Shown here: positions 5,478-54,353 of the stretch, piece after piece | Numbering within the stretch: the first letter of the stretch is position 1 | Layout of the letters: each line of letters starts with the position of its first letter | Origin: Thioalkalivibrio sulfidiphilus HL-EbGr7 | GTDB lineage: Bacteria; Pseudomonadota; Gammaproteobacteria; Ectothiorhodospirales; Ectothiorhodospiraceae | Reading direction: 5' to 3' | DNA: 64,000 bases | Assembly: GCF_000021985.1 (NCBI RefSeq) | Contig: NC_011901.1 | Span: forward strand, 3,234,501-3,298,500 | Made by a program: the position numbers and the translations under genes | The notes under the pieces: generated by a model | Told to the model about the DNA's origin: nothing | Seen by the model: only the letters and a program-made list of their open reading frames with translations | The model's database searches: none

Positions 5478-6299
5478 GTGGCAAACCCACAACAGAAGAC
5501 TGACTTCACGACCAAATTCGTTCTGGCCATCAGCGTCGTGGTACTGCTGGTGACCGTGATCTTCCTGGTGACCCGCCTGATCAATGTGATCGATCAGGCA
5601 CGTGCCCCGGCCGAACCGAGCACCTCCGCCCAGGCCATGGTGGAGGAGCGCATCCGGCCCATCGGCCGCGTGGTCTCCGCCGATGTGGACGCCCAGGCCG
5701 TTGCCGCGCCCCGCACCGCCGCCGACATCTACCGCGGCGTCTGCGCTGCCTGCCACGACACCGGCGCCGCCGGTGCCCCCCGCAAGGGCGACGAGGCCGA
5801 ATGGCGCACGCGCATGGGCCAGGGCTTCGACACCGTCCTGAGCCATGCCATCAACGGCTTCAACGCCATGCCCGCCCGGGGCGGCGATCCCAGCCTGAGC
5901 GATGACGACATGCGCCAGGTGGTGGCCTACCTGCTGACTGAATCCGGCATCCGCGTGAACGGCGCCGCTGCCAGCGCACCCGCGGCTGCGCCTGCTGCTG
6001 CTCCGGCTGCGGCTGCTCCTGCTCCTGCGGCCGCCCCTACCGCCACCGCCGCAGCCGGCGACGCCACTGCCGGTCAGGCCAAGTTCGCCAGCTGCGCCGC
6101 CTGTCACGGCGCCCAGGGCCAGGGCATGGGCATCTTCCCCAAGCTGGCCGGCACCGCCCCCGAGCGCATCGCCGAACTGCTGAAGAAGTACCGCGCCGGC
6201 GAGCAGGTCGGTCCCCAGACCGCCCTGATGGCCCCCAACGCCACCGGCCTGTCCGACCAGGACATCGCCGACCTGGCCGCCTTTGTCGGCACCCTGTAA
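5478..6299 (+). CDS. membrane-anchored diheme cytochrome c (c5 family)
   Basis: Electron-carrier protein held in the cytoplasmic membrane by one N-terminal helix (~residues 14-34) with two periplasmic class I heme domains. Heme motifs CAACH are at residues 89-93 and 206-210. An Ala/Pro-rich linker of about 30 residues joins the domains. The GTG start at 5478 is chosen because GGGAGG (5467-5472) sits 5 nt upstream; a TTG-initiated extension from 5433 lacks such a site. Two-domain c5-type cytochromes usually feed terminal oxidases or accept electrons from periplasmic dehydrogenases, and the sulfite dehydrogenase 8 kb downstream is a plausible partner (inference). Followed by a very strong hairpin. 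Confidence 0.85.
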   Translation: MANPQQKTDFTTKFVLAISVVVLLVTVIFLVTRLINVIDQARAPAEPSTSAQAMVEERIRPIGRVVSADVDAQAVAAPRTAADIYRGVCAACHDTGAAGAPRKGDEAEWRTRMGQGFDTVLSHAINGFNAMPARGGDPSLSDDDMRQVVAYLLTESGIRVNGAAASAPAAAPAAAPAAAAPAPAAAPTATAAAGDATAGQAKFASCAACHGAQGQGMGIFPKLAGTAPERIAELLKKYRAGEQVGPQTALMAPNATGLSDQDIADLAAFVGTL

Positions 6300-6301
6300 G
6301 G

Positions 6302-6366
6302 GTTCGATCCCTTGGCATGAAAAAAGGGGCGCCGTTAGCGCCCTTTTTTCATGCCAAGGATCGAAC
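6302..6366. terminator. long bidirectional hairpin terminator
   Basis: An inverted repeat with ~29-31-bp arms (6302-6332 against 6338-6366) and two 1-nt bulges around a 5-nt loop. The core GGGGCGC/GCGCCC is flanked by A6 on the left and T6 on the right, so it can terminate transcription in both directions. It lies just after the cytochrome stop. Confidence 0.85.
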
Positions 6367-6367
6367 T

Positions 6368-6486
6368 GAAGTGCGAAGTGAGAATTGGGAAGTGAGAAAG
6401 AAAAAACCCGTCATGATGGGTTTTCTGACTTCACACTTCCTACTTCTCACTTCCAACTTCATTGCTCACTTCCCACTTCGCACTTT
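6368..6486. repeat. GAAGTGAG-type inverted repeat with inner terminator
   Basis: Left arm 6368-6398 carries reiterated GAAGTGNGAAGTGAGAA. Right arm 6444-6486 carries the complementary CACTTCNCACTTC reiterations. Inside is a small hairpin AAAACCC/GGGTTTT (6403-6424) followed on the minus strand by TTTTTTC, a good terminator for comM. The comM open frame as sequenced reads into the right arm. Confidence 0.75.
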
Positions 6487-8017
6487 CATGTCTTACATCC
6501 GCCAGCGATCCAGCGCCCGGTAGGTCAATGACTCCGCCAGGTGCTCCGGTGTAATCCCCTCGCTCCCCGCCAGATCGGCGATGGTCCTCGCCACCCGCAG
6601 GATGCGGTGGGCGGAACGGGCGGAGAGGTGAAACCGCTCCATGGCTGACTCGAGCATCCCCCCGGCCCGCCCCGTCCAGGGCGCAATGGATGCGGATCCC
6701 CTGACCGTCCAGCAGCGCATTGCTGTGGCCCTGTCGCGTCAGCTGCCGCGCACGGCAATCCAACACCCGGGTACGCACCGTGGCGCTGTCCTCGGGCATC
6801 GGACCCTGGGTATCGAACAGCTGGTCCTTGGGCAGGCGCGGCACCTGCACCGACAGATCGATGCGGTCCAGGAACGGCGCCGAGAGCCGCGCGCGCTGAC
6901 GGCGGATCTGCTCGGGGCTGCAGCGACAGTTGGCGGCGAGATCGCAGTCATAACCCTGGGGGCAGGGGTTCATGGCGGCCACCAGCTGAAAGCGGGCCGG
7001 GAACTCCGCCTGCCGGGCGGCCCGGGAGATGGTGATGGCGCCGCTCTCCAGGGGCTCGCGCAGCACATCCAGCACCCGCCGGTCGAACTCCGCCAGCTCG
7101 TCCAGGAACAGCACGCCGTTGTGGGCCAGGGAGATCTCACCGGGCCGTGGACTGGAACCGCCGCCCACCAGGGCCACCCCGGAGGCGGTGTGGTGCGGGG
7201 CGCGAAACGGACGCCGTTTCCAGCGCTTGAGGTCCAGGGGCTGGCCGCTCACTGCGTGGATGGCGGCCGTCGTCAACGCCTCGTCGTCGCTCATGGGCGG
7301 CAGCAGCCCCGGCAGACGGCTGGCCAGCATGGTCTTGCCGGTGCCCGGCGGGCCGATCATCAGCAGGTGGTGCTCGCCGGCGGCCGCGATCTCCAGCACC
7401 CGTCGGGCCTGGGGTTGACCGCGCACCTCGGCCAGATCCGCCCCGTTATGCTGTCCCTCGCCGGTTTGCGGGGCGGGATGCTCCACAAGCAGGGTCTCAC
7501 CCCGCAGGTGGGCACACACCTCCAGCAGATGGCCCGCCGCCAGCACCCGGCAGCCGCGCACCAGGGCCGCCTCGTCGGCATCCTCCCTCGCCACCACCAG
7601 GCTGCGCCCCGCCGAACGGGCGGACAGGGCCGCGGGAAGCACCCCGCGCACCGGGCGCAGCTCGCCATCGAGCCCCAGCTCGCCCACGAACTCGTAATCC
7701 GACAGGGCGGAGGTTGGCAACTGACCCGAGGCGGCCAGCAGGCCCAGAGCGATGCCGAGATCGAAACGCCCGCCGTCCTTGGGCAGGTCGGCGGGGGCGA
7801 GGTTGACGGTGATGCGACGGGCGGGAAATTCGAAACCGCTGGTGATCAGGGCGGCGCGCACCCGCTCCCGGCTCTCGCGCACTGCCGCCTCGGGCAGGCC
7901 GACGATGGCGCAGGCGGGCAGGCCGTTGGCGAGATGGACTTCGATCTGGACCGGCGGTGCGTGGATGCCGTCCAGTGCACGGGCATACAGGGTGGCGAGG
8001 TTCATGGATCCGTCCAT
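6440..8017 (-). CDS. comM: ComM/YifB Mg-chelatase-like AAA+ ATPase, frameshifted C-terminus
   Basis: ATPase of the YifB/ComM family; ComM is a helicase promoting branch migration during natural transformation. N-terminal ChlI/Lon-protease-like fold (~1-190), Walker A GPPGTGKTML and Walker B VLFLDELAEF are present. About residue 452 the frame leaves the family sequence. The conserved C-terminal block (MLESAMERFHLSARSAHRI...IADLAGSE...YRALDR) continues in another frame and ends at 6493. The switch falls on a G6 run (minus strand, 6658-6663); removing one G restores a continuous protein ending at 6493. As sequenced, the product ends with ~16 residues translated from the downstream repeat. ATG at 8017 follows AAGGA with 9-nt spacing. 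This could be a true mutation, slippage/phase variation or a sequencing error. Confidence 0.85.
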   Translation of the reverse strand: MDGSMNLATLYARALDGIHAPPVQIEVHLANGLPACAIVGLPEAAVRESRERVRAALITSGFEFPARRITVNLAPADLPKDGGRFDLGIALGLLAASGQLPTSALSDYEFVGELGLDGELRPVRGVLPAALSARSAGRSLVVAREDADEAALVRGCRVLAAGHLLEVCAHLRGETLLVEHPAPQTGEGQHNGADLAEVRGQPQARRVLEIAAAGEHHLLMIGPPGTGKTMLASRLPGLLPPMSDDEALTTAAIHAVSGQPLDLKRWKRRPFRAPHHTASGVALVGGGSSPRPGEISLAHNGVLFLDELAEFDRRVLDVLREPLESGAITISRAARQAEFPARFQLVAAMNPCPQGYDCDLAANCRCSPEQIRRQRARLSAPFLDRIDLSVQVPRLPKDQLFDTQGPMPEDSATVRTRVLDCRARQLTRQGHSNALLDGQGIRIHCALDGAGRGDARVSHGAVSPLRPFRPPHPAGGEDHRRSGGERGDYTGAPGGVIDLPGAGSLADVRHESAKWEVSNEVGSEK

Positions 8018-8188: not shown

Positions 8189-9768
8189 TCAACCACCTTC
8201 ACCAACAGCACGCCATTACGCTCGAAAAGCACCTCGTGCTCGGGCAGACGATGCAGCGAGGTGATCCGTGTCACCGCCACCTCGCCGGGTTGCGGATCCC
8301 GGCGCTCCACGTGACGCCGGGCGTAGACGTTGAAGCTCGGGTTGTTGAGTCCCACCATCACCACCGTCTCGGGTCGTTCCCGGGCCACCAGGGCCGCGTC
8401 GCGGATGGGGCCCTGCTGAACCGCCGCCACCGTAGGCAGCAACAGGCCGGCCACGGAGGCCGTCACCAGCACGCCCAGCAGGCCGAGGCGCCAGGCCAGG
8501 TGCACGCGGCTCGCGAACAGCGCCCACAGGCTGACCGCCAGGGCGACGCCGAACACGCCGTACCACAGCAGGCCGAAATGCCGGTCCACGTCGCTCAGAA
8601 GCGCGGCGGTGAAGGGATCCCTGACCTGTGCTGCCGCGATCTCGACGATGCTCGGAAAGGCCAGCATGAGGGCGAAGAACAGCAGCGCCGGCAGAACGGC
8701 GAGCATGCCGACGCCCAGTCCCTTGAGGTTCAGACGCTCCAGGTGCAGGGCCATCAGCACGAACAGCGGCGTCACGCCATAGAGGATGTAATGGGGCAGC
8801 TTGGTGCCGGCCAGGGAGAACAGCACGAACACCAGCACGAACCAGATGAGCAGGAACAGCTGCAGGTCATCGCCACGTGCCCGGCGCGCGGCCCACCACA
8901 AGGCCGCCACCAGCACCGTGGTCCAGGGCAACAGGCCAATGAGCAGCACGGGGATGTAGTAGTAGATCGGTCCGCTGTGTCCCTCCATGGGCTGCTGGAA
9001 ACGGCCCAGGTTGTGTTCCAGCAGGAAGCCCAGGATGAACCCGGGTCCTTCGCGCAGCGTCACCGCCCCGTACCAGGGCAGCACCACGATCAGGAACAGG
9101 ATGATGCCCACGGGATTGAACACCGCGCGCAGCCAGTCGCGGAAGCGTCCCTTGAGGGCAAAGAAGATCAGGCTCGCGGCAAACGGGATGGCCACCGCCA
9201 CCGGTCCCTTGGTGAGGAATCCCAGGCCCATGAGCAGGAACGCGGCATACACCCAGCGCCGGCCGCCTTCCCGGTAATGCAGGTAGATGGCGAACATGCT
9301 GGCGGCGATGAGCAGGTTGAGCAGGGCATCGGCGATGGCCGCCTTGCCGATCACGCTCACCTCGAAGATCGTGGCACCGATAATCGCGGCGACAAGCCCG
9401 GTGCGCCGGTCCGTGACCCGGGCGGTGAAGGCGTACACCGCGAGCATCCACGCGGCGGCCGCCAGGGCCGAGGGCAGACGCAGGGCAAACTCGTTCAGCC
9501 CGAACAGGGTGACCGAGGCGGCCTGTAGCCAGTAAATGAGGATGGGCTTATCATAGCGGGGCTCGCCATAGAGATAGGTGGCGATGAAGTCACCCCGCGC
9601 CAGCATGTCACGGGTCGCCTCGCTGAAGGCCCCTTCATCCAGGTCGAACAGCGGGAAGCCGTGCATGTTGAAGAAGAAGGCGGAGAACACCGCCACACAC
9701 AGCAGCACCGCGAGCCAGCGCTCGGAAAGCCCCTGCAGGGCCACATCGCCGGAAGTTCTGTCAGTCAT
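8185..9768 (-). CDS. ArnT/PMT-family membrane glycosyltransferase
   Basis: Multi-pass inner-membrane glycosyltransferase of the ArnT / dolichyl-P-mannose mannosyltransferase superfamily, expected to move a sugar from undecaprenyl-phosphate to lipid A or another envelope acceptor on the periplasmic side. 527 aa with ~11 predicted hydrophobic segments. The first periplasmic loop has FDLDEGAFSEATRDM, carrying the Asp-Glu pair typical of the catalytic loop, then YDKPILIYWL, the ArnT-like KP motif. Divergent from a flippase-like gene and close to a GT2 gene that could make the lipid-linked donor. The acceptor is unknown. Confidence 0.85.
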   Translation of the reverse strand: MTDRTSGDVALQGLSERWLAVLLCVAVFSAFFFNMHGFPLFDLDEGAFSEATRDMLARGDFIATYLYGEPRYDKPILIYWLQAASVTLFGLNEFALRLPSALAAAAWMLAVYAFTARVTDRRTGLVAAIIGATIFEVSVIGKAAIADALLNLLIAASMFAIYLHYREGGRRWVYAAFLLMGLGFLTKGPVAVAIPFAASLIFFALKGRFRDWLRAVFNPVGIILFLIVVLPWYGAVTLREGPGFILGFLLEHNLGRFQQPMEGHSGPIYYYIPVLLIGLLPWTTVLVAALWWAARRARGDDLQLFLLIWFVLVFVLFSLAGTKLPHYILYGVTPLFVLMALHLERLNLKGLGVGMLAVLPALLFFALMLAFPSIVEIAAAQVRDPFTAALLSDVDRHFGLLWYGVFGVALAVSLWALFASRVHLAWRLGLLGVLVTASVAGLLLPTVAAVQQGPIRDAALVARERPETVVMVGLNNPSFNVYARRHVERRDPQPGEVAVTRITSLHRLPEHEVLFERNGVLLVKVVD

Positions 9769-17717: not shown

Positions 17718-17792
17718 AATTCAACATTCAAGATTCAAAGTTCAACGGCCACGTCCCATTGAGCTTTAAATGTTGAATGTTGAATTTTGAAT
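17718..17792. repeat. ATTCAA-type inverted repeat inside the urease operon
   Basis: Arms rich in ATTCAA/TTGAAT: 17718-17739 pairs with 17765-17786 at 20 of 22 positions, leaving a 25-nt loop. Occupies the whole ureA-ureB gap. A relative lies at 49843-49915. Confidence 0.8.
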
Positions 17793-49404: not shown

Positions 49405-49776
49405 TCACCACAACAGGGTCTCCGGATTCTCCATCGGTTTGTTGTCCAGGGCGCGCAGCACGCCCTTGATGCAGCGGACCAGGGTCCAGACGAACCACCA
49501 CAGCAGGATCAGGTAGCCGATGATCAGCATGGCGGTGAGCACGCCCACGATCATGTAGATCAGGCCGATCCAGAAGGTGCGGATCTGGTACTGGTAGTGG
49601 CTCTGTGCGGCGGCATCCGCCTCGCCGCGCTTCATGTGCGCCATGATCACGCCCACCAGGGCGGTCAGGCCGATGAAGAAGCCCACGAAATAGAGCACGT
49701 AGATGATCATCACCGGGCCGCTCTTGAGCTGCTCGGCCGGCGCTTCCTGCATGGGTGATTCCTGTACCTGGGACAT
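49405..49776 (-). CDS. DUF4870-like small membrane protein
   Basis: 123 aa with three hydrophobic segments (VMIIYVLYFVGFFIGLTALVGVIMAHM, TFWIGLIYMIVGVLTAMLIIGYLI, LLWWFVWTLVRCIKGVLRAL) and an arrangement typical of DUF4870/Tic20-like proteins, whose function is unknown. Last gene of the probable NO-responsive minus-strand operon; an ATTCAA hairpin separates it from the thioredoxin-fusion gene. Confidence 0.75.
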   Translation of the reverse strand: MSQVQESPMQEAPAEQLKSGPVMIIYVLYFVGFFIGLTALVGVIMAHMKRGEADAAAQSHYQYQIRTFWIGLIYMIVGVLTAMLIIGYLILLWWFVWTLVRCIKGVLRALDNKPMENPETLLW

Positions 49777-49842
49777 GGGGGTTTCCTTGTTGTGTCGTTG
49801 TTGTGTCTCGCCCTTCGGGGCCAGCCCAGTGTGGGCAGGAAG

Positions 49843-49915
49843 AATTCAAAATTCAACGTTCAAAATTCAAAGGAAGTGCTTGTGCCTTTGAATTTTGAAT
49901 CTTGAACGTTGAATT
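49843..49915. repeat. ATTCAA-type inverted repeat
   Basis: 31-bp arms at 49843-49873 and 49885-49915, 27 of 31 complementary, 11-nt loop. The right arm overlaps the stop codon of the thioredoxin-fusion gene by 2 bp. Same family as 17718-17792. Confidence 0.85.
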
Positions 49916-50570
49916 ATCTCAACACCGGTATCACCCGCACCGTGAACAATCCGAAAGCCAGGGTCGCCGCCAGCGCCCCCGCAATGGCCAGCATCGCGAT
50001 CCCCGCGTACCAGCCCAGCACCAGCCCGATCACCCCGACGTGCACCAGCCCCTGGGGCAGCCAGGCCAACAGCCAGCCGCCCCGGATGGGCTTGCCGGTG
50101 AAACGGGGCAGCATGTGTTCGCCCAGACCCATGATCAGCAGCACCAGGAAACCCAGGTTGAAGGCGTGCAGCATCACCGGCCGGGTGCCCACGTCGGGCA
50201 ACAGGCCGCCCAGGGGCAGGGACGCACCCGCCACCAGCAGCCAGCCCAGCGCCCCCAGGATTGCCGCCCGGCTGCTGGGCGAGAGCCCCAGGCCCACGTG
50301 CTGCACCCGCACGTTCAACCGGGCAGGCGCACTGGCCACCAGGGCGGTGGCGGCCGACAGGTCCAGCAGACCGATATGGCGCAGCTCGCCGTCCACCACC
50401 ACGGCGGGGATGGAACGGATGCGCAGCCGCGTCGCCAGTTCGCGGCCCTCCGGCTGGCCCATGTCCACCACGGCGAAGTCGATCTGCTTCTGCTCCGCCA
50501 CCTGGCGCCAGACGCGCTCCGCGTCGTGGCACGAGGCACACCATTCAGAGACCAGCAGTTCGACTTTCAT
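49914..50570 (-). CDS. thioredoxin-like domain fused to mini COX1/NnrS-like membrane domain
   Basis: 218-aa fusion. Residues 1-~80: thioredoxin/glutaredoxin-like domain with CASC (EWCASCHDAE) and cis-Pro in IRSIPAVVVDG. Residues ~95-218: four to five helices. The segment HAFNLGFLVLLIMGLGEHML followed by PRFTGKP parallels the paralogous mini-protein encoded at 51190-51588 (HLMLLGFITMMIYGVGLHVL, PRFSGRP), so both carry the same histidine-bearing helix motif, as in heme-binding COX1/NnrS-like proteins. ATG at 50570 has AAGGAG at ideal spacing; the longer frame adds nine unconserved residues. Suggests a membrane redox protein; function unknown. Confidence 0.72.
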   Translation of the reverse strand: MKVELLVSEWCASCHDAERVWRQVAEQKQIDFAVVDMGQPEGRELATRLRIRSIPAVVVDGELRHIGLLDLSAATALVASAPARLNVRVQHVGLGLSPSSRAAILGALGWLLVAGASLPLGGLLPDVGTRPVMLHAFNLGFLVLLIMGLGEHMLPRFTGKPIRGGWLLAWLPQGLVHVGVIGLVLGWYAGIAMLAIAGALAATLAFGLFTVRVIPVLR

Positions 50571-50599
50571 GGGTTTCTCCTTGGTGGGCTCTGGCATGA

Positions 50600-50730
50600 A
50601 TTCAAAGTCAAAAGCCGGAACGCAAAGGGCGCAAAGGGAGCGCCAAGGGCGCGAAGAAATTCATGGTGAATACAAAACCTTTGCGACCTTCGCGCAGACC
50701 TTCACGCCCTTCGCGGTTCGCTTTACAGCG
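50600..50730. repeat. GCAAAGGGCGCAAAGG-type imperfect inverted repeat
   Basis: Left arm 50611-50656 (repeated GCAAAGGG / GCGCCAAGG units) faces right arm 50688-50724 (CTTCGCG / CCCTTCGCGG units). Lies inside the minus-strand operon. Single-arm relatives occur at 54355-54405 and 59876-59910. Confidence 0.65.
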
Positions 50731-50735
50731 CCTGA

Positions 50736-51188
50736 TCAATCGGCGCAACGCATGCACTGGATGTCGTAGCGGTCCACCCAGCGCTTGAGGGCCTCGATGG
50801 CCTCGGGGCCCGTGTGCAGGCGCTCCAGGGCCTTGTCCGGATCGTCCGGGCGCATCACCACCACCCAGGCATCGGTGTAGGGTGCCACGTTGACCAGGCC
50901 GGGGTCCTGCTCCACGGCCGGGTTGATGCGCACGATGGTCCCGTCGAAGGGGGTGGGGATGCCACCGGCCCACTTGCCCGACTCCAGCCGCGCCACCGGC
51001 TTGCCGGCCGCCCGGTGGGTGCCCGGGGCGCGAAAGCGGAAGTACTGCACCCGGCCCGCCATGGTCTGGGCCGGGTCGGTGATGCCCAGGGTGAAGGTGC
51101 CGTCCCCCTCCGGGCGCACCCAGACATAGTCCAGGTCGTAGAAGAGGTCGTCGGGCAGCTCGCAGCCGCGATACTCGGTATGCGCCAT
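50736..51188 (-). CDS. GcvH/LbpA-like lipoyl-carrier protein
   Basis: 150-aa protein of the glycine-cleavage H / lipoate-binding family. Lipoyl attachment Lys72 in ARLESGKWAGGIPTP and TPFDGTIVRINPAVEQDPGLVNVAPYTDAW match the H-protein fold. No gcvT or gcvP gene is near, and it is longer than ordinary GcvH. The ESGKW-G context recalls lipoate-binding proteins of sulfur oxidisers (LbpA), but no Hdr-like genes are in the window. A C-terminal CMRC adds a possible redox or metal site. Starts 1 nt from the stop of the mini-COX1 gene, so co-translated with it. Confidence 0.75.
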   Translation of the reverse strand: MAHTEYRGCELPDDLFYDLDYVWVRPEGDGTFTLGITDPAQTMAGRVQYFRFRAPGTHRAAGKPVARLESGKWAGGIPTPFDGTIVRINPAVEQDPGLVNVAPYTDAWVVVMRPDDPDKALERLHTGPEAIEALKRWVDRYDIQCMRCAD

Positions 51189-51189
51189 G

Positions 51190-51588
51190 TCAGGCCCCCT
51201 TCGGTCCGTAGTGCCGCACGGTGAGTGCGATGTTCAGGGCGAACAGACCCATGGCGGACCAGGCCAGCAGGCCGCCCACGCTCACCGTCGGGTGATGCCA
51301 CAACAGCCAGCCGGCCACCATGATCCACAACCCCAGGTTGGCCACGTAGAGCTGCACGTTGGCCAGGCGCTCCGAGTAGAGCGGCCGCCCGGAGAAGCGC
51401 GGCAGCACGTGCAGCCCCACCCCGTAGATCATCATGGTGATGAAGCCCAATAGCATCAGGTGCCCGTGGATGCGCGGCACGTTGCCCGGGATCAGGCCGG
51501 GATGGGCCAGCCACAGCAGGCCCACCAGCCCGCCCAGCAGGCTGTAGATCAGGGCAGCGAGGATGAACAGACGATTGCGGGGGTGCAT
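51190..51588 (-). CDS. mini COX1/NnrS-like four-helix membrane protein
   Basis: 132 aa, four hydrophobic helices. Contains His residues in helix 2 (RIHGHLMLLGF) and helix 2/3 (GVGLHVLPRFSGRPLYS), a pattern found in short COX1-like or NnrS-like proteins often annotated as truncated cbb3-oxidase subunit I. It is far too short for a real oxidase subunit, lacks the Cu-B ligands, and starts normally, so it is a dedicated small family rather than a fragment. First gene of the operon facing the NsrR/FNR boxes; NO-stress function is inferred. Confidence 0.72.
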   Translation of the reverse strand: MHPRNRLFILAALIYSLLGGLVGLLWLAHPGLIPGNVPRIHGHLMLLGFITMMIYGVGLHVLPRFSGRPLYSERLANVQLYVANLGLWIMVAGWLLWHHPTVSVGGLLAWSAMGLFALNIALTVRHYGPKGA

Positions 51589-51626
51589 GGCCGACTCCGG
51601 TGTTGCCTACCACCAGAGTACATAAG

Positions 51627-51643
51627 ATGTATATTAAATACAT
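51627..51643. promoter_or_regulatory. NsrR-type operator
   Basis: ATGTAT-ATTAA-ATACAT fits the NsrR consensus half sites ATGYAT-N5-ATRCAT exactly. Lies 39 bp from the mini-COX1 start and 48 bp from the hemerythrin start. Confidence 0.75.
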
Positions 51644-51656
51644 TGATGATAATCAA
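51643..51656. promoter_or_regulatory. FNR/ANR/DNR box
   Basis: TTGAT-GATA-ATCAA is a perfect FNR-family site, sharing one base with the NsrR box. Together they form a divergent control region. Confidence 0.75.
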
Positions 51657-51690
51657 AGACAATCAGATCAATCCGTACCACACTTCAACG

Positions 51691-52233
51691 ATGAAATCGT
51701 TTTTCAAACCGCCCGCCCCGGGCTTCGACGATCCGCTCGGCATGCTGCACGCCTGCCACGAGCGCATCCTAGAACGCCTGGAGACCCTCGAACGCCTGCC
51801 GGAGCACCTGAGCCGGCGTGGCGCGGACCCGGATGCCCGTCACGCGGCGGAACGCATCCTGAACTACTTCGACCGGGCCGCGCCCCATCACCATGCCGAC
51901 GAGGATACCGACCTGTTCCCCCTGCTGCTCGGCTGCCGGGACCGGGCTGAATGGGACACCCGCCTGCCCCTGTGGCTGGAACAGCTCAGCGCCGAGCACC
52001 CGGGGCTCGAGCGGGGCTGGGCGACACTGCGCCCCCGGCTCGAGGCGGTCATCAGAGGCGACAACGACGCCATGCCCCGCGCCGTCGAGTGGATCGCCAG
52101 CACCCGCCGCCATCTGGACCTGGAGGAAGAACACGTCCTGCCCCTGGCCCGGCGGCTGCTGAACGCGGATGAACTCCGCAGCCTGGGTCGTGCCATGGCA
52201 TCGCGTCGCGACGTGGCGCTGAGCCATGGCTGA
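51691..52233 (+). CDS. hemerythrin HHE-domain protein
   Basis: 180-aa four-helix-bundle protein with iron-binding HHE pattern: LHACHERILERLE, DRAAPHHHADEDTDLFPLLL and STRRHLDLEEEHVLPLARRLL. Such proteins bind O2 or NO, or act in Fe-S repair (YtfE/RIC-like, though the YtfE N-terminal domain is absent). The ATG at 51691 lies just downstream of NsrR and FNR boxes; no strong ribosome-binding site. The next hemerythrin gene overlaps its end by 8 bp. Confidence 0.85.
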   Translation: MKSFFKPPAPGFDDPLGMLHACHERILERLETLERLPEHLSRRGADPDARHAAERILNYFDRAAPHHHADEDTDLFPLLLGCRDRAEWDTRLPLWLEQLSAEHPGLERGWATLRPRLEAVIRGDNDAMPRAVEWIASTRRHLDLEEEHVLPLARRLLNADELRSLGRAMASRRDVALSHG

Positions 52234-52945
52234 TTTCAGCCTGGACCTGCGCGGCCTGGGCAGCCATGCCCACACCCGCGCCTATTACACCCTCAAGGAA
52301 CTGCGTCCCGGCCAGTTGTTCGAGGTGCTGCTCGACCAGGCGCCGGAGATGCTCATGGAGGCGTTGAGCCTGCAACTGCGCCACGGCATCCACTGGCAGA
52401 CCGATGCCGCCGGCCCGCCCCTGTGGCGGCTCAGCGTGCGCCGCCGGGAAGACGTGGAGCCCGTGGACCTGGTGGACCTGCTCACCCGCGACCACCTGCG
52501 CATCGACCGCCTGTTCGCCAGCGCCCTGCACAAGGTCAACGCCGAGGACCTGGCCGGTGCCGAGCCGGATTTTCGCACCTACGTCACCGGACTGCGCCGG
52601 CACATCCAGGTGGAGAACGAACTGATCGTGCCGCTGCTCGACCTGCCCCGGCACCCGTCTGGCCAGGACCCCACCTCGGTGATGCTGCGCGAACACGAGG
52701 AGATCCTGGAACAGACGGCCCTGCTGGAAAGCCAGTTCGACGAGGGCGTGGACGCCGGCTGGGAAGTGGCGCCCTACTTCGCGCTAATCTCCGGCGCCCT
52801 GGCCAAGCACGAAGGCCGCGAGGAAACGAACCTGTTTCCCCACTGGTCACGTGCGCTGCGCTCACTGCCCGACGGTGGGACGGAACTGCTGGCTAGGGCG
52901 AAGGCGATCCTGGCCGGGGAAAGCCGCGACGCAAAGGCGCGATGA
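52226..52945 (+). CDS. DUF2249-hemerythrin fusion protein
   Basis: 239 aa. Residues ~1-75: DUF2249, a TusA-like fold (FSLDLRGLG...ELRPGQLFEVLLDQAPEMLMEALSLQLRH...WRLSVRR). Residues ~85-225: HHE hemerythrin domain (LLTRDHLRIDRLF, LRRHIQVENELIVPLL, MLREHEEIL, LAKHEGREETNLFPHW). DUF2249-hemerythrin proteins are recurrent in denitrifiers and NO-responsive regulons. Overlaps the upstream hemerythrin gene by 8 bp, so they form an operon. Confidence 0.85.
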   Translation: MADFSLDLRGLGSHAHTRAYYTLKELRPGQLFEVLLDQAPEMLMEALSLQLRHGIHWQTDAAGPPLWRLSVRRREDVEPVDLVDLLTRDHLRIDRLFASALHKVNAEDLAGAEPDFRTYVTGLRRHIQVENELIVPLLDLPRHPSGQDPTSVMLREHEEILEQTALLESQFDEGVDAGWEVAPYFALISGALAKHEGREETNLFPHWSRALRSLPDGGTELLARAKAILAGESRDAKAR

Positions 52946-52988: not shown

Positions 52989-53075
52989 CGTAGGTTGGGG
53001 TGAGCGCAGCGAAGCCCAACGAACCGGTGATGGGCTTCTCCATGTTGGGCTTCGCTGCGCTCACCCCAACCTACG
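52989..53075. repeat. perfect 32-bp-arm inverted repeat (GTAGGTTGGGGTGAGCGC type)
   Basis: Arms 52989-53020 and 53044-53075 are perfect reverse complements over 32 bp, 23-nt loop. Lies between the hemerythrin operon and the convergent lipoprotein gene. Confidence 0.92.
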
Positions 53076-53263: not shown

Positions 53264-54151
53264 CTAGGGAGTGGGAGGTGAAATCCCGTCCCTGTTAACC
53301 ACCTCAACAAACGAACCGCCAAGGATGCTGCTGTAATCACCAGATGCGGTGTTTCTGCGTCCGCCACTCACACTGCTCCATTCCCCGGATCCAGTGTTCC
53401 TGAATCCACCGCTGACGCTGCTATTTCCACCAGACGCCATATTTGAGTCGCCGCCACTCACACTGCTCCATTGCCCGAATGCGGTGTTGTCGGATCCGCC
53501 GCTGACGCTGCTCCATTCCCCGGATGCGGTGTTCCTGGATCCGCCGCTGACGCTGCTCCGTTCCCCGGATGCGGTGTTCCTGGATCCGCCGCTGACACTG
53601 GCATAAGGGGCTGTGATCGTATTGTCGACTCCAACCACCAGACCCCCAAAGCTTGAATAGGCATTACCACTACCGCCCACGAAGTTGTGGGAGCCCGACT
53701 TGTCAGTTTCACCAACCATATGTGGCTCGTTGTAACCGACGATGATGTTGCCAAGCCCGTTGATGCTCTCCGTGATGCCTTCACCGTTGACGATCTGCAG
53801 GTTCACGCCCGAGAAACGGATGGTGGTGCCGTTCAATACATGGGGGTCCGGCATGACCTCCACGTACTCAGCCATGGCGAACACATTGCTGCCGCGCAGT
53901 GCCTGGATCTCCTCTTCCAGCTCGCCGATACGGGCAAGTTCATTTCGCAGTTCGTCTCGCAGATCGTTGATCTGGCTCAGCGCTATGTTGAGTGCGGCAC
54001 GCAGGGCCTCGAAATTCTCGTTCACCTCCGACGCCCGGGCAGGCGCGCCGGACTGGAATTGATAGGGAATGCTGACCTGCGCCACCAGCGGCACGGAGCC
54101 CAGGGCGAGCAGCAGGATACCCGGAAGCAGCTGAATTATTCTTCTTTTCAC
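53264..54151 (-). CDS. secreted coiled-coil protein with YadA-head-like repeats
   Basis: 295 aa from the GTG at 54151 (an ATG at 54202 would precede the signal peptide by 17 residues). Signal peptide VKRRIIQLLPGILLLALGSVPLVAQ; coiled coil ~40-85 (NENFEALRAALNIALSQINDLRDELR); middle domain; then six ~15-residue repeats of the form SSVSGGSRNTASGEW, like the beta-roll of trimeric autotransporter heads. It has no C-terminal outer-membrane anchor, ending GGSFVEVVNRDGISPPTP, so it is secreted or held by a partner. The 45-bp DNA repeats are nearly identical, hence prone to copy-number change. Confidence 0.75.
   Translation of the reverse strand: MKRRIIQLLPGILLLALGSVPLVAQVSIPYQFQSGAPARASEVNENFEALRAALNIALSQINDLRDELRNELARIGELEEEIQALRGSNVFAMAEYVEVMPDPHVLNGTTIRFSGVNLQIVNGEGITESINGLGNIIVGYNEPHMVGETDKSGSHNFVGGSGNAYSSFGGLVVGVDNTITAPYASVSGGSRNTASGERSSVSGGSRNTASGEWSSVSGGSDNTAFGQWSSVSGGDSNMASGGNSSVSGGFRNTGSGEWSSVSGGRRNTASGDYSSILGGSFVEVVNRDGISPPTP
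53349..53606 (-). repeat. 45-bp tandem repeats within the YadA-head-like gene
   Basis: Five to six near-identical 45-bp units with the core GGATCCGCCGCTGACGCTGC. Each encodes one 15-residue repeat, so unit gain or loss would keep the frame. Confidence 0.85.
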
Positions 54152-54353
54152 AGAGGCGGTCTCGTCACAGTGGAATGGGATATTTCCGACCGGAACATCC
54201 ATGTCACATACCGTGGTGTCCGCAGACCTCGGCAGCCATGGTGGTCACAGTGATTCAGCGGAATTTATATGACCGGCCAAGGCTTCAGGCAAGCAAAATC
54301 TCTGGCTCTCACACAGCCACGCCAATCCTAAAGGTTTCTGCTATATACAGCTT

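Follow-up and report, generated by a model that had tools for sequence, protein, structure and literature searches.

Lipoyl carriers have long been known from the 2-oxoacid and glycine complexes and, later, from sHdr sulfur oxidation. Four-helix proteins with single-unit heme-copper oxidase homology (HCOH), linked to denitrification, were reportedly described by Pei et al. in 2014 (cited in PMC11218638); to our knowledge, these single-unit oxidase relatives have so far been studied mostly by sequence. Within the sulfur oxidizers, the Hdr-like route of sulfur oxidation cannot do without the lipoyl protein LbpA (Cao et al. 2018, PMC6067878), and the portion of that paper available to us gives LbpA1 and LbpA2 for its group I clusters, with no type linked to nitric oxide (NO) among them. 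Regulons under NsrR and DNR, with members such as hmp, nnrS and dnrN/ytfE, form a further point of comparison (Rodionov et al. 2005, PMC1274295). Here we describe a gene cluster of Thioalkalivibrio sulfidiphilus HL-EbGr7 that holds a lipoyl protein of the LbpA family, a thioredoxin and two small membrane domains resembling part of the oxidase subunit COX1 ("mini" proteins) on one side of a pair of predicted NsrR and FNR/DNR operators, and two hemerythrins on the other. The window, meaning the whole stretch of 64,000 nucleotides that was analysed (NC_011901.1, positions 3,234,501 to 3,298,500), is part of a single contig of 3,464,554 bases.

Leftward from the intergenic region at 51589-51690 run the mini gene, the lipoyl gene and the gene for a thioredoxin-mini fusion, and rightward run the two hemerythrin genes, so that gene calls and Pfam matches bear out the divergent layout given in the preliminary description of this DNA. 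That description had also known of no system of this composition. For the gene set this holds, as no description of it, or of an NO-linked LbpA clade, was found in the open-licence PMC literature searched; for the mini proteins it does not, their class having reportedly been described already by Pei et al. in 2014.

The lipoyl protein and the conserved core

When 369 genomes of the class were searched with the lipoyl alignment, proteins of the module type appeared in 18 (E 2.5e-61 or better), after which the matches drop to 3.5e-41; a sample of 398 genomes of the phylum added, besides our own, a single module-type genome (G715, 8.3e-62; loci and genomes of the comparison carry L and G numbers). 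A maximum likelihood tree of 65 rows, built after removal of near-identical sequences and with row labels fixed beforehand by score and sequence motif, divides into GcvH, two clades of LbpA and the module proteins. The latter form a group of 22 rows with moderate support (88/87, 90% of bootstrap trees) that is sister to one of the two LbpA clades and lies inside neither, the clades being those defined by the tree and not equated with the published LbpA1 and LbpA2 names. Judged by sequence, then, the lipoyl protein is a third clade within the LbpA family of sulfur oxidizers and not GcvH, which makes the earlier label "GcvH/LbpA-like" right as to family.

The individual residues of the protein follow the same division. 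Specifically, the predicted lipoyl lysine K72 is present in 22 of 22 module rows, and C9 and C145 occur in all 22 module rows, in all 30 LbpA rows and in none of the 13 GcvH rows, the C-terminal count being weaker for GcvH, whose rows are trimmed near their ends. C148, which completes a C-terminal CxxC, is found in 22 of 22 module rows and in 0 of 43 others, among them the 13 end-trimmed GcvH rows. The module protein thus shares with LbpA of the sHdr pathway a GcvH-like family, a lipoyl lysine, a conserved cysteine near each end and a grouping apart from GcvH, but differs from it in its separate clade and in the second C-terminal cysteine that makes the CxxC. Furthermore, in the loci examined it sits beside thioredoxin, hemerythrin and NO regulators and not, as the sHdr LbpA does, beside hdr genes.

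An identity as GcvH of glycine cleavage was considered and rejected: the protein scores 81.7 bits against 115.85 for TIGR00527 and 99.5 against 117 for PRK01202, and it falls outside the GcvH clade. The score alone is not decisive, as an LbpA of the same genome passes PRK01202 (126.1). That genome's next lipoyl matches are a tandem LbpA pair within an sHdr-type cluster that contains CCG-domain, 4Fe-4S, pyridine-nucleotide oxidoreductase, TusA, LipS1-like and lipoate-ligase genes. The module lies far from this cluster and so lacks the hdr-like neighbourhood typical of LbpA, and likewise no hdr genes were seen by eye in the gene lists of L058-L060, L133, L136, L138, L140, L142, L143 and L176.

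The lipoyl gene belongs to a core of three genes that stays together across genera. In a near-relative sample of 58 genomes, our own included, a full-length mini ortholog is present in 15 (63-100% identity, E 6.1e-46 or better); the weaker matches of L018-L031 were not counted as orthologs, and many of the weaker matches in this sample lie in open frames of about 450-620 residues that are probably ordinary oxidases. In each of the 14 relative loci whose mini is full-length (L003-L016), the mini, lipoyl and thioredoxin-mini genes share one strand and a constant order, and they are also found together in L057-L060 and in eight of 15 further class loci (L130-L137). Hemerythrin 1 accompanies them in 13 of the 14 relative loci and hemerythrin 2 in 12, L007 having the latter as two separate pieces. 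Within the core, conservation is highest for the lipoyl protein, whose identity is about 90% in 12 of these loci, with 87% for L003 and 65% for L016. The doubt raised with the preliminary description, that these genes might not co-occur in other genomes, is removed by this comparison, in which the core co-occurs and is syntenic in many.

The DUF4870 gene, which had been counted as an operon member, does not belong with this core. Among the loci searched it was found only in our own genome and in G004 (T. sulfidiphilus ALJ17, of the same genus), and it probably lies outside the module, being limited to these two and persisting in the second despite deletion of the core. In ALJ17, whose genes neighbouring the module are 94-98% identical to those of the window, the mini is reduced to a 45-residue remnant and the lipoyl gene to its last 41 residues; the thioredoxin gene was not found in that locus, while the promoter, the hemerythrins and DUF4870 remain. 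The deletion junction lies near positions 1440-1640 of L017 (G004 comprises L017, the deleted copy, and L046), making ALJ17 a strain that has naturally lost the core.

Predicted control by NsrR and FNR/DNR and links to nitric oxide

An NsrR operator adjoining an FNR/DNR box had been read in the intergenic region, and both are exact, the palindrome and the box overlapping by one base. Motif scans of the window gave one match each: the FNR pattern TTGATN4ATCAA occurs once against 0.01 expected, and the NsrR pattern ATGYATN5ATRCAT, with up to one mismatch allowed, occurs once with no mismatch against 0.18 expected. In the whole 3.46 Mb genome the palindrome ATGNATN5ATNCAT is found in three places and its reversed control in none. 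These operators are kept in the relatives. In 14 of 14 divergent-hemerythrin loci of the same family (L033-L044, L046 and the window, leaving out L032, of another family, and L045, which has no hemerythrins), the NsrR slot stands at the same offset beside the FNR box with 9-12 of its 12 specified positions, a score equalled by none of 500 shuffles at each locus. The FNR/DNR box is present in 15 of the 16 loci of this first set, the window included. Outside it, the FNR pattern occurs 17 times in the 164,621 bases of L130-L144 (reversed control, 0) and lies close upstream of a module gene in ten of these 15 loci, as it does in L058, L059 and L176. Dual NsrR and FNR/DNR operators are therefore kept within the window's family, and the FNR/DNR box is found in other families too.

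Genes for candidate regulators are also present in the genome. One encodes an Rrf2 protein that in NCBIfam matches NsrR best, at 152 bits and so short of the curated cut-off of 182, and the other an FNR protein whose 304.9 bits exceed the cut-off of 228. With a promoter palindrome kept within the family and an NsrR-like gene in the genome, the module is predicted to belong to an NsrR regulon, and with the box in 15 of 16 loci and an FNR gene, to an FNR/DNR regulon as well. Spacing to the -10 element was not used as evidence, the -10-like matches lying at varying distances and reaching no more than 5 of 6 bases. A third hemerythrin gene of the genome (L083, 725-1333; Pfam, 36.4 bits) stands tail to tail with the NsrR-like gene.

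The genes beside other copies of the module point in the same direction. Divergent from the operon in T. halophilus (L060, taken to be one contig with L045) are hmp (476.8 bits, above its cut-off) and an NsrR-like gene (159.6 bits against a cut-off of 182). Crp/Fnr-family genes adjoin the module in L058, L133, L138 and L142 and, by eye, in L059; those of L058 and L133 gave nothing above an NCBIfam cut-off, and that these neighbours are DNR-like is a guess. In addition, L133 has an NnrS gene, L142 a bacterial globin, and L138 a NarK-family transporter near a fragment that reads by eye like NarG. The suggestion of an NO-response module is thus well supported, by the operators conserved in all 14 same-family loci and by the hmp, nsrR, nnrS, narK and Crp/Fnr genes beside the module elsewhere.

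It is informative to set the module against the regulons already described. It shares with the NsrR and DNR regulons their operator types, dual control and some partners, and its operators, hemerythrins and links to Hmp and NnrS are features already known from NO regulons; the lipoyl carrier, thioredoxin and mini oxidase, unlike these, are not among the members given in the available part of that survey (PMC1274295). Likewise, the accessible text on sulfur and nitrate control in H. denitrificans names no hemerythrin and no NsrR (PMC12423496). As for the physiology of the host, HL-EbGr7 is reported to be microaerophilic and to show no anaerobic growth with NOx (PMC3072093), and its four full-length COX1-family proteins gave no match to a NorB model at E 1e-5, so that detoxification fits better than respiration. 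Ectothiorhodospira lacustris has a canonical norCBQD cluster according to PMC10224512; the absence of nor from other Ectothiorhodospiraceae that it gives conflicts with norCBQD in two Thioalkalivibrio species (PMC5328954), and was not relied on.

Oxidase-like membrane proteins and possible function

The mini proteins resemble helices 9-12 of heme-copper oxidases, as judged from models and profiles. The COX1 match of the 132-residue protein is below the Pfam cut-off of 34.8 and covers profile positions 5-102 of 436, and the membrane half of the fusion matches this protein at 34% identity. A model made from an alignment of 28 rows has four helices (pLDDT 86.2) and supersedes a poor single-sequence model (65.5). 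VIA-align places it on heme-copper oxidases (Z up to 14.1, the top rows mostly on the last four helices and some on the first four) and on MAPEG-type proteins (Z up to 10.8), scores to be read knowing that helical bundles can give Z up to about 13; Foldseek gave no match with E below 0.001 for the model (best E 0.15). The Pfam score and Foldseek are each too weak alone and were used only together with a profile match to CcoN: the 28-row profile matches three CcoN-type chains at E 1e-7 to 2e-6, with CcoN 309-460 matched at E 2.3e-6. In this alignment the mini H-x-H falls on the HVH of CcoN, which we take to carry the ligands of the b3 and b hemes, and His135 of the fusion falls on His43 of the mini. 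Both mini domains have a conserved histidine at each end of helix 2, and in the fusion C11, C14, P55, H135 and H152 are invariant in five rows. The distribution of charges, read by eye, suggests that both mini termini and the thioredoxin domain are cytoplasmic.

We presume that the mini proteins belong to the single-unit HCOH class that Pei et al. are said to have described in 2014, with which they have in common four helices, an oxidase-like character (mostly that of the last four helices), MAPEG-like folds and an NO or denitrification context. They differ from it in being tied to a lipoyl carrier and, for one of the two copies, in being fused to a thioredoxin. Consistent with such a placement, their four helices correspond by homology to a single oxidase unit, with the best agreement to helices 9-12, and not to NorB with its twelve helices and full set of heme and metal ligands. 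NnrS, a twelve-helix and likewise NO-linked membrane protein, is weakly matched (E 0.0046, 16.8 bits, cut-off 28) but is a distinct family, and our own genome has a separate NnrS elsewhere. The same genome encodes, between its cbb3 and aa3 oxidase genes (L146, 4577-5941), a 454-residue COX1-related protein (Pfam, 66.1 bits) that gave no NCBIfam match at E 1e-5 and is perhaps a twelve-helix HCOH protein.

Mini proteins also occur where the lipoyl protein does not. One genome-contig scan gave 31 loci. Of these, 16 belong to Gemmatimonadota and Chloroflexota (L061-L072, L074-L077); a search for the lipoyl gene at E 0.01 found none in them, but seven contain a further mini-like match no more than about 1 kb away. 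Crp/Fnr and DUF2249 proteins adjoin the mini pair in L061, and an ScdA_N protein adjoins in L065. The paired mini unit thus reaches beyond the lipoyl module and also occurs in likely NO contexts. In L061, a metagenome-assembled genome (MAG) of Gemmatimonadota, a 310-residue protein (5888-6820) combines DUF1858 and DUF2249, the latter in two stretches, with a TusA match below the cut-off.

Conversely, the lipoyl protein occurs without the mini proteins. The 15 further class loci divide into the eight with a mini pair beside the lipoyl gene and seven from genomes in which no mini was found at E 1e-6 (four with no match, three with matches only in frames of 488-506 residues), and in the lipoyl tree the rows with a mini form one subgroup (93/85) and those without form the other (84/91), both with moderate support. 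A separate thioredoxin of the same kind is nearby in five of the seven loci without a mini (L140-L144), and the same five have a hemerythrin, found by tblastn in four and by Pfam in L143. The locus of G715 (L176) likewise combines a lipoyl gene with genes for a hemerythrin and a thioredoxin, and it carries an FNR box. Among the loci that have a mini, hemerythrins accompany it in L130-L133 and L135; L134 is truncated.

The cluster probably removes NO or repairs NO damage. The account that we favour, tentatively and with confidence a little short of even, is that it is an NO-defence module in which an NO-induced relay of lipoyl and thioredoxin dithiols would feed NO-binding metal sites. NO would disable NsrR and FNR/DNR would activate at low oxygen, so that cells exposed to NO while microoxic would express both arms. 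A cytoplasmic dithiol relay, made up of the dihydrolipoyl group, the C-terminal CxxC of the carrier and the thioredoxin, might then pass electron pairs to a metal site provided in most forms by the hemerythrins, to which one clade would add a membrane heme unit of two mini COX1-like chains, with one low-spin heme (between His43 of the mini and His135 of the fusion) and one open heme (at His41 of the mini). The product would be N2O, or HNO on the lipoyl group itself. What stays constant would thus be the relay of lipoyl protein and thioredoxin, while its partner would vary between hemerythrin, mini heme pair and Hmp. The passage of thiol electrons from a lipoyl carrier and a thioredoxin to small heme-like proteins, as suggested in the preliminary description, would agree with the anatomy of the parts. 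A precedent is the conversion of NO to HNO by reduced lipoate in pyruvate dehydrogenase (PMC10444860).

A third, separately regulated lipoyl carrier in an NO regulon would mean a new job for lipoic acid and a link between the sulfur and nitrogen cycles in one cell, and the tethered thioredoxin with its one-third oxidase subunits would offer a compact system for a direct test of the single-unit oxidase relatives. A bolder form of the same idea is a hitherto undescribed, dithiol-powered NO reductase, in which the LbpA-type carrier and the thioredoxin would feed two-heme mini subunits, or hemerythrins where the minis are missing, with electrons from cytoplasmic sulfur or NADH metabolism; we regard this as unlikely, but if it were true, lipoic acid, familiar from sulfur oxidation, would take a direct part in the removal of NO.

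Several observations weigh against the NO-defence account. L032, in another family, keeps the FNR box with only 3 of 12 positions of the NsrR slot, and L045 has no FNR box between the arms, its best NsrR-like match there being 10 of 12. No FNR box lies close upstream of a module gene in L131, L132, L133, L134 and L140, and the strict NsrR palindrome is absent from L130-L144, L058 and L059, so that dual control is indicated only for the window's family. The partners are also not constant: tblastn found neither thioredoxin nor hemerythrin in the stretches examined of L138 and L139, of which L139 breaks off at the end of its contig, and it gave no hemerythrin in L058, L059, L136, L137 or L060, the last of these having Hmp in its place. 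Our own genome has NnrS as well, which means that the module is not its only NO-linked gene set. Finally, genes resembling persulfide dioxygenase and rhodanese by eye lie near the module without a mini in L138 (7746-10488) and favour a role in sulfur metabolism; the NarK-type transporters of this locus are on the opposite side of the module.

The main rival, which we hold to be somewhat doubtful, is denitrosylation and repair in protection of the sHdr lipoyl system. The lipoyl protein and thioredoxin would strip NO from nitrosated thiols or replace NO-damaged sHdr LbpA so that sulfur oxidation continues, the hemerythrins would repair iron centres, and the minis would be heme sensors or NO sinks. 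Module and LbpA-type proteins do co-occur, an LbpA-type protein (E 1e-29 or better) being present in 16 of 18 module genomes vs 14 of 351 others (Fisher 5e-18, kinship ignored), with only G370 (75% complete) and G226 (97% complete) lacking one; however, these counts come from related taxa and are not independent. Thioredoxin with lipoic acid is also said, in the title of a 2005 paper by Stoyanovsky, to denitrosate S-nitrosothiols. Moreover, lipoyl groups are modified by NO (PMC10444860). Nonetheless, a spare LbpA would need neither a private CxxC nor a thioredoxin tethered to a heme-type membrane domain.

Next is sulfur transfer at low oxygen, an improbable reading in which the protein would be a third sulfur- or electron-carrying LbpA, made when FNR/DNR is active, with thioredoxin as acceptor and the NO link secondary. 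Its closest relatives are indeed LbpA proteins, which Hdr-like sulfur oxidation requires (PMC6067878), and the genes near the module in L138 fit. However, the ten gene lists read by eye for hdr genes show no lip genes either, NO genes recur at module loci, and control by NsrR would be odd for a sulfur pathway. Still less probable, to the point of being hard to credit, is a reverse flow in which the mini hemes would carry electrons from quinol to the dithiols of thioredoxin and lipoyl group and keep a cytoplasmic repair pool reduced. The histidines at the two ends of helix 2 in each mini domain could put hemes on both sides of the membrane, and the thioredoxin is fused on the N-terminal side, probably in the cytoplasm; but by textbook potentials dithiols are more reducing than quinol, so that the flow would need an energy input, and the dithiol pair is kept in loci without a mini. 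That the genes are unrelated and merely stand side by side, which the absence of one or another partner from some loci might invite, is contradicted by synteny and deserves next to no credence, order and strand being unchanged across 14 of 14 relative loci with a full-length mini, two SKS MAGs and eight further class genomes, and the operators being conserved.

Layout of the locus and neighbouring features

The coordinates of the genes and sites discussed above are collected in Table 1. One base separates the mini and lipoyl genes. Between the lipoyl and fusion genes the window has a gap (50571-50735) that exceeds the one in relatives (about 20 bases in L033). Within this gap, 50610-50727 has one weak copy elsewhere in the genome, a 69% match in L085.

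Table 1. Features of the module and its immediate surroundings, in window coordinates
Feature	Position	Strand	Remarks
Mini COX1-like four-helix membrane protein, 132 aa	51190-51588	-	His41-x-His43, His60; COX1 PF00115 E 5.7e-6, 25.9 bits
LbpA-family lipoyl carrier (predicted), 150 aa	50736-51188	-	Lys72 predicted lipoyl site, Cys9, C145-x-x-C148; GCV_H PF01597 E 4.6e-31
Thioredoxin (WCASC) fused to second mini COX1-like membrane domain, 218 aa	49914-50570	-	Thioredoxin_3 E 1.8e-9; His135, His152
DUF4870 membrane protein, 123 aa	49405-49776	-	27.0 bits vs cut-off 25; neighbour, probably outside the conserved module
Hemerythrin 1 (HHE), 180 aa	51691-52233	+	PF01814 E 3.2e-12
DUF2249-hemerythrin fusion (hemerythrin 2), 239 aa	52226-52945	+	PF10006 E 5.8e-8, PF01814 E 6.8e-15
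NsrR-type operator ATGTATATTAAATACAT	51627-51643		Exact palindrome half-sites
FNR/DNR box TTGATGATAATCAA	51643-51656		Exact match
Palindromic intergenic repeat, 3' of the fusion gene	49843-49915		Self-complementary; copies elsewhere in the genome

The palindromic repeat 3' of the fusion gene has similar copies at 17720-17792 of the window and in L084, L086 and L096 of the same genome. Another self-complementary intergenic stretch, of about 87 bases, lies 3' of the second hemerythrin gene (52989-53075). The second hemerythrin gene is itself interrupted in one relative, L036 (G009), by an insert at about 8480-8742 that falls after about residue 45; a reading similar to this insert (CGSLVQNDCTAV...) is present in L060. 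Beyond the hemerythrins, on the minus strand at 53264-54202, the window encodes a secreted-looking protein of 312 residues with repeated SSVSGGSRNTASG units, which by eye resembles the head of a trimeric autotransporter.

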